Shown here piece by piece: positions 3,348-7,913 of a DNA stretch of 33,486 bases. Every line of letters starts with the position of its first letter. Positions within the stretch are counted from its first letter, which is position 1. The notes beneath the pieces are model-generated. The model saw nothing but the letters and a program-made list of their open reading frames with translations, was not told the DNA's origin and ran no database searches. The translations under genes were made by a program, and so were the position numbers. Source of the DNA: Patescibacteria group bacterium (lineage in GTDB: Bacteria > Patescibacteriota > Saccharimonadia > UBA4664); assembly GCA_028288925.1 (NCBI GenBank), contig JAQGHG010000024.1, positions 1 to 33,486 of the forward strand, given 5' to 3'.

Positions 3348-5054
3348 CTAGGTGCTCCCGGTGGGTTTAGCGAGTTTGGTAGTGGGCGGTTCGATGATCA
3401 TGTCTTCGAGTGGGGCGCCGGGCGGGATCATGGGGAAGACATTGTCGGTTTTGACGACTTCGACGTTGATAATGGTGGGCCGGCCGGTGACGGCAAAGGC
3501 TGCGGCCAGTTTGGTTTCGAGCTCGTCCGGGGCCTGGATGTGAAAGCCGGCGGCGCCGTAGGCCTCGGCGAGTTTGACGAAGTCGGGGTTGCCGACCAGA
3601 TCGGAGCCGGATTCGTGGTTGTCGAAAAAGAGCTCCTGCCATTGGCGGATCATACCGAGGTAATGGTTGTTGAGGATGATGATCTTGACGGGTAATTGGT
3701 TGATGACGGCGGTGGCGAGCTCGAAGAGGGTCATCTGGAAGCCGCCGTCGCCGACGATGGCCAGGACGGTGGCCTGAGGCTTGGCGAACTGGGCGCCGAT
3801 GGCGGCGGGGAAGCCGAAGCCCATGGTGCCGGCGCCGGAACTAATCCAGCGATTGGGGCGGCCGGTCTTGTAGAATTGCGCTGCCCACATCTGGTGCTGG
3901 CCGACGTCGGTGGTGACGATGGCGTCGCCGCCCGTAAGGCGGTAGACGGCGTCGATGACGGCCTGCATGGTGAGGCCGCGCTTATCTGGCTCGTAGTGGA
4001 GCGGGTATTTTTGGCGGTAGGCGTCGAGATGGGTGTTCCAGGCGGTGTGGCGGGTGGGTTTGGTGGCCTGGAGCAGGGTGACGAGGGCTTCCTTGGCGTC
4101 GGCGTGGACGGGGACGTCGGCGGTGATGATTTTGTTGAGCTCGGAGGCGTCGATGTCGATATGGGCGATGAAGGCATCCTTGCAGAATTGCGAGGGCTTA
4201 CCAACGATGCGGTCGTCGAAGCGGGAGCCGATGTTGAGCAGGAAATCGCATTCGACCATGGCTTTGTTGGCGTAGGCGGTGCCGTGCATACCGAGCATGC
4301 CGAGTGAGAGGCGGTGGGTTTCGGGCAGGACGCCCTTGCCGAGGAGGGTGGTGGTGACGGGGGTGTCTGTGGCTTCGGCGAGGGTCTGGAGCTGCTGCTC
4401 GGCGCCGGCGATGAGTACGCCGTGGCCGGCCAGGATGACGGGGCGCTTGGCTTGGGACCAGGCGGTGGCGATACGCTTGATTTGAGCGTGATCGGGTTTG
4501 GGCACCGGCGTGTAGGCGGGCAGGTCGAGGGCCGGCTGGAGCGAGCCGTGGAAGGGCCCGGAGCTGACGTCCTTGGGGATGTCGATGAGTACGGGGCCGG
4601 GCCGGCCGGTGGTGGCGAGGTGAAAGGCTTCGATGACGACGCGGGGGAGATCGCCGGTGTGGCGCACGAGGTAGTTGTGCTTGACCACCGGCATGGTGAT
4701 GTTGAAGGTGTCGGCTTCCTGGAAGGCGTCGAGGCCGAGCATGGGCGTGATCTGTTGGCCGGATATGACTACGAGCGGCACGCTATCCATGTGCGCGGTC
4801 ATGAGGCCGGTCACGACGTTACCGGCGCCGGGGCCGGAGGTCACCAGGACGACGCCGGGTTTGCCGGAGGCGCGGGCGTAGCCGTCGGCGATGTGGGCGG
4901 CGCCTTGCTCGTGGCGGACCTGAATGAACTTGATCTTGGTGCCGCTGGTGATGAGCGCGTCGAAGATGGGCAGCACGGCGCCGCCGGAGTAGCCGAAGAT
5001 GTATTCGACGCCGTGGGCTTCGAGGGTTTTGATGAGGGCGGTGGCGCCGTCCAT
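3348..5054 (-). CDS. ilvB: Acetolactate synthase large (catalytic) subunit
   Basis: MDGATALIKTLEAHGVEYIFGYSGGAVLPIFDAL...VTSGPGAGNVVTGL...GDGGFQMTLFELATAVINQLPVKIIILNN, ThDP-binding motif. Start set at the internal Met because ridA ends at 5056. Confidence 0.95.
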   Translation of the reverse strand: MDGATALIKTLEAHGVEYIFGYSGGAVLPIFDALITSGTKIKFIQVRHEQGAAHIADGYARASGKPGVVLVTSGPGAGNVVTGLMTAHMDSVPLVVISGQQITPMLGLDAFQEADTFNITMPVVKHNYLVRHTGDLPRVVIEAFHLATTGRPGPVLIDIPKDVSSGPFHGSLQPALDLPAYTPVPKPDHAQIKRIATAWSQAKRPVILAGHGVLIAGAEQQLQTLAEATDTPVTTTLLGKGVLPETHRLSLGMLGMHGTAYANKAMVECDFLLNIGSRFDDRIVGKPSQFCKDAFIAHIDIDASELNKIITADVPVHADAKEALVTLLQATKPTRHTAWNTHLDAYRQKYPLHYEPDKRGLTMQAVIDAVYRLTGGDAIVTTDVGQHQMWAAQFYKTGRPNRWISSGAGTMGFGFPAAIGAQFAKPQATVLAIVGDGGFQMTLFELATAVINQLPVKIIILNNHYLGMIRQWQELFFDNHESGSDLVGNPDFVKLAEAYGAAGFHIQAPDELETKLAAAFAVTGRPTIINVEVVKTDNVFPMIPPGAPLEDMIIEPPTTKLAKPTGST

Positions 5055-5055
5055 A

Positions 5056-5436
5056 TTAGGCCGTACCCCGGGCGGCGATAGCCTCGATTTCGACGAGCAG
5101 CGGCACATCGCCGCCCAGCCGGGGCAGTTCTTTAACGCCGATGGTGGAGCGGGCCGGGCGGGGAGTGGCGAAGTGTTTGAGATACTCTTCGTTGACTGCC
5201 GCGAAATCGGCCATATCGGTGAGGTAGATGGTGGTTTTGATGACGTCGTTCATGGTGAGGTGCTCTTGAGCAAGGGCGCTGGTGAGGTTGGCCAGGACTT
5301 GGGCGGTTTGCTTTTGGACATCTGGGTGCGCGGTTTTGGTCTGCGGCTCGAGGCCGACTTGACCAGACACATAGTACAGATCGCCGGCTTGGCGGATAGG
5401 GGAGTAAGGGCCGTAAACGGGGGTTTGGTCTGACAT
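5056..5436 (-). CDS. ridA: RidA/YjgF enamine/imine deaminase
   Basis: RidA family sequence (YVSGQVGLEP...DVIKTTIYLTDMADFAAVNEEY...PARSTIGVKELPRLGGDVPLLVEIEAIA); SD AAAGGA upstream. Confidence 0.93.
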   Translation of the reverse strand: MSDQTPVYGPYSPIRQAGDLYYVSGQVGLEPQTKTAHPDVQKQTAQVLANLTSALAQEHLTMNDVIKTTIYLTDMADFAAVNEEYLKHFATPRPARSTIGVKELPRLGGDVPLLVEIEAIAARGTA

Positions 5437-5460
5437 GGGTTTATCCTTTCGCGATAAATG

Positions 5461-5490
5461 AAAAGCCCCGCACTTGGTGCGGGGCTTTTA
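5461..5490 (-). terminator. Attenuator hairpin upstream of ridA-ilvB-ilvA
   Basis: Minus strand AAAAGCCCCGCAC-CAA-GTGCGGGGCTTTT, between the leader peptide ORF and the ridA SD. Confidence 0.85.
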
Positions 5491-5509
5491 GTGTTTTTTA
5501 GATCAACAA

Positions 5510-5569
5510 CTAGGGCCGCGCACGGTGCGAGGTGAGTACCAGCTGAATAATTACGATTTGTTTGACCAT
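5510..5569 (-). CDS. Branched-chain amino-acid leader peptide MVKQIVIIQLVLTSHRARP
   Basis: 19 codons, ATG GTC AAA CAA ATC GTA ATT ATT CAG CTG GTA CTC ACC TCG CAC CGT GCG CGG CCC TAG. Eight Ile/Val/Leu plus one Thr among residues 2-13. Begins 6 nt after a -10 box and precedes a terminator hairpin. Confidence 0.8.
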   Translation of the reverse strand: MVKQIVIIQLVLTSHRARP

Positions 5570-5575
5570 AGGTGA

Positions 5576-5604
5576 AGGCTACACCGCATCGGCTTTACGG
5601 TCAA
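5576..5604 (-). promoter_or_regulatory. Promoter of the ilv attenuator operon
   Basis: Minus strand TTGACC (5604-5599), 17-bp spacer, TAGCCT (5581-5576). Confidence 0.75.
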
Positions 5605-5626
5605 GAAATGGTGTCGGGATCAATGG

Positions 5627-5648
5627 TTGTACGAATTTATTCGTACAA
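5627..5648. promoter_or_regulatory. 22-bp palindromic operator in the divergent ilv / HTH intergenic region
   Basis: TTGTACGAAT-TT-ATTCGTACAA, perfect 10-bp arms. Confidence 0.75.
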
Positions 5649-5682
5649 TTAATATAAATTCAATACAGATGTTTGGGCCTAT

Positions 5683-5711
5683 TTGACTAAAAGGCCATAA
5701 TCCATTAGGCT
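5683..5711 (+). promoter_or_regulatory. Promoter of the HTH/dehydrogenase operon
   Basis: TTGACT-17 bp-TAGGCT, 7 nt before the ATG at 5719. Confidence 0.75.
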
Positions 5712-5718
5712 TGCTGGC

Positions 5719-6969
5719 ATGTTTTCCCTTACTCCAGAAGAAACGTTATTGATTGCAGAGGTTCGCCGCAGCGGTCAATTGAGCTTGCCGGAATTGACGA
5801 AAGTCTTGAAACTTCACCGTTCGACGCTGTATTACCAGCTGCAATCGCTGGTGAAGAAGGGGATTTTGCAGGAGGTGAAGCTGTCGTCGCGGCGGTCGGT
5901 GTACCGGTTGGTGTCAACCGAGCGTCTGGAGAAGGTGGTAGAAGCCCAGCGGCAGACGTTGACTGAGCTTCTGTTGGATTCGCCGCGGACACAACTGCGG
6001 GGCAAACGGCCAAAACTAGTGTTCACAGATTCGTATAGGCTGACAGACGAGCTGATGGCTCAACTTGGCGAGTACGAGGTGGTAATGCACCCTGATTCAC
6101 CGGCGCGGATTAGTCCCGAGGCGTTTGTGTTGCGCTGTCAGGACGCCGATGTGGCGGTGACGAGTTTTTCGGTGATGATTACGCGGGAGATGTTGTTGCA
6201 GTGTCCGAATTTGAAGTGCATCGTGACGGCTTCGATTTCGACCGAAATGATTGATGTGGAGGCGTGCCGGACGTTGGGAGTGCAGGTGCAGTCGCTGCCT
6301 GCTAGCCGGAATTATAAGAAGGCGGCGCGAGCGGAGTTTGTATTTACCTCGCTCTTTAATGTGCTGCGGCCGCTGTATCCAGCTGCAGAAGCGTTGCGGT
6401 TGGGCCAGTTTGAGCATCGCGGATTTACGGCGGAGGAACTGCGCGGCAAGATCGTGGGCGTGGTGGGGGTAAAGCGGGAGGGGAGAGAGATTATTCCTTT
6501 GTTGCGAGCGTTTGGATGTGGAGTGGAGGTATGTAATCCGGATGGGGCGACCGTAGCGCCAAGCGATGTGGGTGTAGCGGAGTTTGTGACCTTGGGAACG
6601 ATATTTCAGGAGTGTGATGTCGTGATATTCCCGGAGGACTTTAGTGAGATGCTGGATTTGGGACCAGATTTGATGAACGCAACGATGCGGCCACGGTATT
6701 TCTTGTTTTTGAGCTACTCATTGAAGCTGCACTTGGATACGATTCGAGAGCTGATTGTGTCACGGCATATTACGGCTCTGGCGTTGGATTACTTTGCGGA
6801 TGTAGCGGGCGTGTTTAAGGATTTTCCACGGAGCCAGTACCGTAAGATTATGAATTTTCCGAACGTGGTGATTACGCCGGAGATTGGCTATCTGACGCGA
6901 CAATCGATGGAACTGAATAACCAGCAGGTGTGGGAGATTTTGCATAACCTGGAGCTGGCGCGGCAATGA
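5719..6969 (+). CDS. Regulator: N-terminal winged HTH plus degenerate D-2-hydroxyacid dehydrogenase-like domain
   Basis: N-term LSLPELTKVLKLHRSTLYYQLQSLVKKGILQEV (wHTH); residues ~95-416 align by eye with D-isomer 2-hydroxyacid dehydrogenases but the catalytic motifs are altered (TPEIG instead of TPHIA, GVVGVKREGRE at the Rossmann loop). Confidence 0.8.
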   Translation: MFSLTPEETLLIAEVRRSGQLSLPELTKVLKLHRSTLYYQLQSLVKKGILQEVKLSSRRSVYRLVSTERLEKVVEAQRQTLTELLLDSPRTQLRGKRPKLVFTDSYRLTDELMAQLGEYEVVMHPDSPARISPEAFVLRCQDADVAVTSFSVMITREMLLQCPNLKCIVTASISTEMIDVEACRTLGVQVQSLPASRNYKKAARAEFVFTSLFNVLRPLYPAAEALRLGQFEHRGFTAEELRGKIVGVVGVKREGREIIPLLRAFGCGVEVCNPDGATVAPSDVGVAEFVTLGTIFQECDVVIFPEDFSEMLDLGPDLMNATMRPRYFLFLSYSLKLHLDTIRELIVSRHITALALDYFADVAGVFKDFPRSQYRKIMNFPNVVITPEIGYLTRQSMELNNQQVWEILHNLELARQ

Positions 6970-7913
6970 AGACGATTGTATTTACGGATCCGCCGCTAGC
7001 GCTTGCGGACAAGACGGTGAAGGCAGTGAAAGCGCTGGCCGGTGTGACCGTGCGGTCGTATGAGGGGTTTGCGGCTGATGAAGAAGAGCTCTATAACCGG
7101 GGTAAGGATGCGGATATCATCATCATTGATATGACGCAGTATACGACGGTGTTGCGACGGTGGCCGAAGCTGAAGGCGATCGTGACGACAAGTGTAGGGA
7201 CTGACCATATCGATGTGGCGTACTGTCGGGAACGGGGTATCCAGGTGGTGAACTTTCCCGGCTATAACGCACGGTCGGTGGCGGAGATGTCGATTGCGAT
7301 TTTAATTTCGTTATTGCGGAAGGTGCCCATGGCGCAAATGTACGTGCGGGGCGGCGGATGGAACTTTGAGTATTTTGAAGGACGCGAACTGGCTGACAAA
7401 ACGTTCGGGATAGTCGGAGCCGGTAATGTGGGGCGCGAGATGGCACAGATTGCTTTGGGTCTTGGGATGAGGGTGCTGTGCACTACGAAGCATCCATCTG
7501 AGGAGCGGGCACGAGAATTGGGGATTGAGCGGTTTGTGGACTTTGCGGTGCTGTTGCGAGAGGTGGACTTCTTGGCTGTGGCGGTGCCGGCTGACGCAAG
7601 TACGATGCATTTAATTGGCGCCAAGGAACTGGCCACGATGAAGCCGGCCGCGATTTTGGTGAATGCTGGGCGTGGCAGTGTGGTTGATACGTTGGCTTTG
7701 GCAGACGCTTTGTATCGCGAGAAGCTGGCGGGTGCGGCTTTGGATGTGATTGAGAACGAGCCATTTGATATTCGGACGGTGGATTTGCGGATCCAGGAGA
7801 TGGTGAATTCGAATAATGTAGTGGTGACGCCGCACATCGCCTTTAATACCTACGAGAGCACTGAACGGTTGGGGATGCGGTTGATTGAGGCTGTAGAGAG
7901 CTTAGTAAGCTAG
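6966..7913 (+). CDS. D-isomer specific 2-hydroxyacid dehydrogenase (intact catalytic motifs)
   Basis: FGIVGAGNVGREMA, VNAGRGSVVD, ALDVIENEP, VVVTPHIAFNT; ATGA-type overlap with the upstream regulator. Confidence 0.92.
   Translation: MKTIVFTDPPLALADKTVKAVKALAGVTVRSYEGFAADEEELYNRGKDADIIIIDMTQYTTVLRRWPKLKAIVTTSVGTDHIDVAYCRERGIQVVNFPGYNARSVAEMSIAILISLLRKVPMAQMYVRGGGWNFEYFEGRELADKTFGIVGAGNVGREMAQIALGLGMRVLCTTKHPSEERARELGIERFVDFAVLLREVDFLAVAVPADASTMHLIGAKELATMKPAAILVNAGRGSVVDTLALADALYREKLAGAALDVIENEPFDIRTVDLRIQEMVNSNNVVVTPHIAFNTYESTERLGMRLIEAVESLVS

Follow-up and report, generated by a model that had tools for sequence, protein, structure and literature searches.

A predicted, putatively leaderless branched-chain amino-acid attenuator upstream of a ridA-ilvB-ilvA operon in a class of small-genome Patescibacteria

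Introduction

Does the short hydrophobic open reading frame (ORF) that precedes ridA-ilvB-ilvA in a patescibacterial genome encode the leader peptide of a branched-chain amino acid (BCAA) transcription attenuator, and is it translated from the very 5′ end of its RNA? The locus lies in a stretch of 33,486 nucleotides (hereafter the window), part of a 1.22-Mb draft genome from a class of small genomes. An initial annotation, made from the sequence alone, proposed a promoter, a 19-residue leader peptide beginning at the inferred transcription start site (TSS), a terminator hairpin and three mutually exclusive RNA pairings, with ridA as the first structural gene. The comparative evidence described below makes it very probable that the element is a cis-acting, ribosome-mediated BCAA transcription attenuator with a leaderless leader, for which a response to starvation is predicted.

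Results

Anatomy of the leader region

The features of the locus and of related loci are collected in Table 1. The promoter hexamers, the 19-codon ORF and the 13-bp hairpin were borne out to the base, and segments 2 and 3 lie at the coordinates first assigned to them. An intrinsic terminator sits between the leader ORF and the first gene, and folding of the leader region, as the initial annotation had suggested, yields a minimum free energy (MFE) of -37.4 kcal/mol (z = -3.65 versus shuffles) with the terminator intact. The window contains 670 ORFs of 12-30 codons. Of these, the leader ORF alone combines at least 8 Ile/Leu/Val per 11 residues with a terminator, and no other has both a suitably spaced -35-like hexamer and a terminator.

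The minus-strand U-tract is short (UUUU, paired inside the stem), and a generic terminator scan listed the hairpin on the plus strand only, where the T-run is better. It could be argued from this that the hairpin is a constitutive terminator between divergent genes, able to stop antisense transcription, next to an ORF that is hydrophobic by chance and without any regulation. The uniqueness of the leader among the 670 small ORFs argues against this explanation, as do its recurrence in 15 genomes, the covarying pairings and the fixed promoter geometry, and taken together they leave it scarcely any credibility.

Table 1. Features of the window and of related loci. Coordinates are those of the window unless a locus (L) is named.
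Feature	Location	Strand	Basis or remark
-35 hexamer TTGACC	5604-5599	-	Read from sequence
Candidate -10 hexamer TAGCCT	5581-5576	-	17-nt spacer after -35; ATG 6 nt further
Leader ORF MVKQIVIIQLVLTSHRARP*, 19 codons	5569-5510 (ATG 5569-5567, TAG 5512-5510)	-	Putatively leaderless; A of ATG is the inferred +1
Revised segment 1 GGUCAA, start-codon region	5567-5562	-	Pairs with 5506-5501 in MFE
UUGAUC, immediately 3′ of stop codon, partner of segment 1	5506-5501	-	MFE, duplex test
Segment 2 GUGCGCGGC, antiterminator 5′ strand, end of leader ORF	5523-5515	-	Stalled-ribosome nascent fold, duplex test
Segment 3 GCCCCGCAC, common to antiterminator and terminator 5′ arm	5485-5477	-	Folds, duplex test
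Terminator hairpin 3:4, 13 bp, loop CAA, UUUU end, then CAUUUA	5489-5461	-	Sequence, fold
ridA Shine-Dalgarno AAAGGA	5449-5444	-	In contrast to the leader, which has none
ridA, enamine/imine deaminase	5436-5056	-	TIGR00004 above cut-off; ATG at 5436
ilvB, biosynthetic acetohydroxyacid synthase (AHAS) large subunit	5054-3348	-	TIGR00118 747.7 bits (cut-off 538.35)
Biosynthetic threonine deaminase IlvA with an N-terminally fused ACT domain (residues 8-73) of AHAS small-subunit type	3343-1607	-	PF22629, PF00291, PF00585; TIGR01124 667.8 bits (cut-off 411.3)
Second-type leaders	L131:862-954 and 2212-2325, L133:2138-2245, L167:4521-4670, others	+ of locus	Conserved RNA GGGCTGTGCTTCANNATGGTTGAAGCC, terminator AGGCTTCAACCGAAGCCT
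LeuA-like HMGL-family enzymes right behind second-type leader	L131:1025-2203, L187, L182, L188, L191, L200, L209, L210		
Small ORFs (about 55-125 codons) that follow second-type leader	L174, L175, L170, L167, L194, L195	- for L174, L175, L170	

Conservation of the leader across genomes

The class and the phylum were searched with IlvB and IlvA, and the sequence upstream of the hits was then read. Leaders of the window's kind number 16 and come from 15 genomes, of which 14 belong to the class and one, G524, to another class of the phylum; they stand before operons of ridA, ilvB and ilvA. Two genomes of the same family as the window's illustrate the variation: G005 carries the leader MAQASVIILVVIPSPPARR before ilvB, and G006 carries MQLQKVMIIELIIPSHSARL before ridA-ilvA, no ilvB having been found in that genome. 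When this leader type and the second one described below are both counted, an Ile/Val/Leu-rich leader with a terminator precedes the biosynthetic ilvB in 12 of the 13 class genomes that have the gene; the sole exception is G201, where the operon is present and no leader is recognisable. In other lineages the leader criteria of our script were satisfied at 1 of 80 ilvB loci, a count in which a few contigs offer little upstream sequence and for which the script is imperfectly sensitive (it missed one class leader, L110, that was found on reading). The single such locus, L082, has MVLADIWRFHLVKKFSVVSVLLVLVITLVIIGGGP and a terminator 200 nt upstream of ilvB. Inheritance of the leader together with ilvB from the best database relatives of that gene (Verrucomicrobia, 63-64% identity) was considered and rejected, as no leader was found upstream of their genes.

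The character of the leader peptide is kept among relatives and the nucleotide sequence is not. Ile, Leu and Val account for 103 of the 280 residues of the 16 leaders (Ile 62, Val 21, Leu 20), with the Ile codon AUU the commonest of their codons. Loss of the peptide and of the pairings in homologous loci, an outcome that the initial annotation had named as telling against its proposal, was not what the comparison revealed, and the attenuation logic gains support from both.

The ilvB genes of other bacteria can be controlled by T-box RNAs. A ppGpp riboswitch has also been described upstream of ilvB (PMC10272879). The short ORF could be a mere bystander in a leader that works as a T-box or riboswitch or by binding a protein. 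Conservation of peptide character without conservation of nucleotide sequence points the other way, and no T-box or riboswitch family appears among the Rfam matches to region 5400-5760 even at E up to 10, where the best weak matches include the Thr, Trp and Leu attenuator families, which share a terminator. An RNA element of that sort is therefore very improbable here. At the gathering threshold Rfam reports only a tRNA in the window, the weak Thr/Trp/Leu-leader matches at permissive thresholds are driven by the terminator, and the matches found in two relatives are L10 leaders, which are unrelated.

Promoter geometry and the leaderless start

All 16 leaders have a TTGMMH hexamer that begins 34-37 nt ahead of the start codon, and none has another within 50 nt upstream. 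The spacer measures 16-17 nt and the distance from the -10 hexamer to the start codon 6-8 nt, as in the two family relatives, which read TTGACC-17-TACCCT-6-ATG and TTGACC-17-TATTTT-6-ATG; the sequence of the spacer itself is not conserved, though its length is kept. Two leaders that start with GTG, G354 and G336a, keep the identical spacing, although in G336a the GTG was preferred over an upstream ATG on account of that spacing. Because the arrangement of -35, -10 and start codon is kept in 16 of 16 leaders, the TSS was placed at the start codon, and the leader mRNA is almost certainly leaderless, in agreement with the initial proposal.

One objection concerns the window's own promoter. Its -10 hexamer is weak (3 of 6 positions) and was not reported by a generic promoter scan, and the intergenic region 5570-5718, reaching to the divergent gene, has room for other promoters, from one of which a leader with an untranslated 5′ region could be transcribed, attenuation being otherwise unchanged. 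Such an upstream TSS is nevertheless improbable, since the window's leader ATG has no Shine-Dalgarno sequence and the promoter spacing is held throughout, GTG-starting leaders included, while the spacer sequence is not. Support for TAGCCT as the presumptive -10 is the spacing kept among relatives.

RNA pairings and ribosome-mask folding

Duplex energies between defined regions were computed for each leader, and those of matched pairs were compared with those of pairs from different genomes by permutation. Pair counts were avoided in favour of duplex energies because, when the 16 leaders were aligned with MAFFT, the arms of several were wrongly placed. With region boundaries that were set after the sequences had been read, the antiterminator (stop-codon region with terminator 5′ arm) gave -16.9 kcal/mol in matched and -12.4 kcal/mol in mismatched combinations (p = 5e-6, 16 leaders; p = 5e-5 before one terminator was corrected and segment 3 widened to take in the loop). 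The first 20 nt of the ORF and the stop-codon region gave -9.0 versus -7.7 (p = 0.0065), and for two pairings that served as negative controls p was 0.27 and 0.64. As the arms differ in sequence between genomes, the matched-duplex signal is in effect covariation. The antiterminator overlaps the end of the leader ORF and is mutually exclusive with the terminator. The pairing of start-codon and stop-codon regions is the candidate protector (1:2), with weaker support than the antiterminator. It replaces the segment 1 of the initial annotation, CGCAC:GUGCG, which does appear as a local hairpin in the window's fold and is not conserved in relatives; there it is the start-codon region with which the stop-codon region conserves its pairing.

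Folding under a ribosome mask gave a picture that depends on the length of the RNA. With the mask stalled in the Ile/Leu/Val cluster of the nascent RNA, 15 of 16 leaders had segment 3 in an upstream pairing, and when the mask was placed at the stop codon the terminator formed in all 16. At full length, 12 of 16 leaders, the window's among them, have their energy minimum with the terminator formed even under a stalled ribosome, and the switch must therefore rely on co-transcriptional timing. In nascent RNA without a ribosome, the antiterminator often beats the start-stop pairing.

A second, Leu-rich leader type

A second type of leader, longer, rich in Leu and with a conserved end ...GLCFTMVEA, was found in 44 of 386 class genomes, versus none for a reversed control pattern; the window's own genome has no match. 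The conservation of this ending may be owed to the RNA, to the peptide or to both. In the antiterminator of these leaders 94% of cells are paired, and three of its pairs have changes on both sides; a crossing helix is likewise 94% paired, with no evidence of covariation. Most of them have a -35 hexamer at the leaderless distance.

At 8 loci these leaders precede LeuA-like HMGL enzymes (Table 1); otherwise they stand before operons with ilvB or ilvA, or before small ORFs. The one enzyme that was scanned, that of L131, has 2-isopropylmalate synthases as its best NCBIfam matches, below their cut-offs. No Pfam family matched any of the small ORFs scanned; motifs such as VIPYxGTE recur in some of them, and those of L174 and L175 resemble each other.

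Leaders also occur in tandem (L172:4086-4175 and 4711-4800; L167, L168, L174, L175), G336 having two of the window's kind. In several genomes with tandem leaders, a second-type leader is followed by one or more ORFs, a first-type leader and then (ridA-)ilvA.

The operon, its neighbours and an incomplete pathway

The start of ilvB is probably M19 of the ORF 3348-5108, directly after the ridA stop codon. Among relatives the operon draws on ridA, ilvB, the ACT subunit and ilvA, arranged in different orders and not always complete. G502 shares the arrangement of the window, ridA-ilvB-ACT-ilvA, with a related second-type leader ahead of it. The position of ridA as first gene, mentioned in the initial annotation, recurs in G006 and G502, and is not general among relatives. 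Fused to IlvA in the window, the ACT domain has a short ORF to itself in G005 and several other relatives.

Divergent from the operon (5719-6969, plus strand) lies a gene for a 416-residue protein that has a MarR/TrmB-like helix-turn-helix (HTH) at its N-terminus and whose body resembles D-2-hydroxyacid dehydrogenases; another 2-hydroxyacid dehydrogenase gene comes next, at 6966-7913. Between the operon and the divergent gene is a perfect palindrome with 10-bp arms, TTGTACGAATTTATTCGTACAA (5627-5648), which has no exact match in the loci of other genomes. It is possibly an operator, and the HTH protein could bind it upstream of its own gene.

Ketol-acid reductoisomerase (ilvC, PF01450) and dihydroxy-acid dehydratase (ilvD, PF00920) were found in none of 14 genomes searched, 11 of which have a completeness of 90% or more and a contamination of 5% or less, and both were found in 14 of 14 control genomes. 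With known enzymes these genomes cannot finish the pathway, and the attenuator would therefore govern its first committed steps alone. A role of the operon in acetoin fermentation was also considered and rejected, acetolactate decarboxylase (PF03306) being present in 0 of the 14 genomes.

Discussion

Comparison with known attenuators

The leaders of ilvB, ilvGMEDA and leu in E. coli work by the same attenuation logic and the same kind of control codons, with a Shine-Dalgarno sequence, a 5′ untranslated region and a complete pathway; the window's leader differs from them in being putatively leaderless, in lacking a Shine-Dalgarno sequence and in serving an incomplete pathway. Closest in mechanism is the experimentally studied ilvBNC attenuator of C. 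glutamicum, which corresponds to the ilvB-II motif (PMC10272879). According to PMC11857589, which cites Morbach et al. 2000, its leader peptide MTIIRLVVVTARRLP has no ribosome-binding site and a TSS one nucleotide from the start codon. There the start codon is shielded by hairpin H1, and a competing antiterminator and terminator follow. Both systems have in common a BCAA leader peptide, a TSS at the start codon (placed here from promoter geometry), the lack of a Shine-Dalgarno sequence and a competing antiterminator and terminator; the candidate start-stop pairing of the window's leader would be the counterpart of H1. In contrast, the window's leader is shorter, the ridA ATG lying about 133 nt from the inferred TSS versus 292 bp in C. 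glutamicum, and its operon, ridA-ilvB-ilvA, has no ilvC, in genomes without ilvC and ilvD. As no Rfam ilvB motif matches here (a set from which ilvB-II itself may be missing), the window's element should be said to work like the C. glutamicum attenuator and not to be one.

The ilvB1NC operon of M. tuberculosis also has a BCAA upstream ORF (uORF) with a terminator/antiterminator switch before ilvB (PMC13236596), and differs from the window in lineage and in the presence of ilvN and ilvC. A leaderless start has a precedent in the trpL attenuator of Sinorhizobium meliloti, whose RNA starts with the ATG of the leader ORF (PMC7298713), although it senses tryptophan and controls trpE(G). Candidate uORF attenuators before ilvB have been reported in other phyla as the ilvB-OMG and Leptospira ilvB motifs (PMC10272879); with E values up to 10 allowed, Rfam gave no match to such a family in the window's leader region. 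In the open-access literature nothing relevant was found on attenuators in these bacteria. While the mechanism is already known, the leader family, the lineage and the truncated regulon appear not to have been described.

A model for the switch

In the model that we favour, RNA polymerase would initiate at the A of the leader ATG or within 1-2 nt of it, and a ribosome would load at the leaderless 5′ end to read codons 5-12, rich in Ile, Val and Leu. When charged Ile, Val or Leu tRNAs are scarce, the ribosome would stall in these codons and cover the 5′ end, leaving segment 2, in the end of the ORF and the stop region, free to pair with segment 3; no terminator would then form and ridA-ilvB-ilvA would be transcribed. 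When charged tRNAs are plentiful, the ribosome would reach the stop codon and cover segment 2, and the 3:4 terminator would halt transcription. Without a ribosome, the start-codon region may pair with the stop region, blocking initiation and favouring termination.

Implications

These leaders extend amino-acid attenuation, and especially attenuation by putatively leaderless leader peptides, to a class of small-genome bacteria, in which the RNA arms have changed between genomes and the pairing has persisted. They also pose a puzzle: BCAA synthesis cannot be finished by known enzymes in these organisms, yet its first steps are apparently regulated by BCAA supply. Only the enzymes of those first committed steps would be kept under putative BCAA attenuators, namely IlvA, IlvB with the ACT subunit and, behind the Leu-rich leaders, the LeuA-like enzymes, with neither of the shared later enzymes IlvC and IlvD. 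One speculative and rather doubtful interpretation is that the pathway is split, acetohydroxy acids and possibly isopropylmalate being passed to a partner or host that bears IlvC and IlvD and would return the amino acids. IlvC and IlvD may, on the other hand, have been replaced by unrelated enzymes. The gene content and leaders described here make either hypothesis, a split pathway or replacement enzymes, directly testable.
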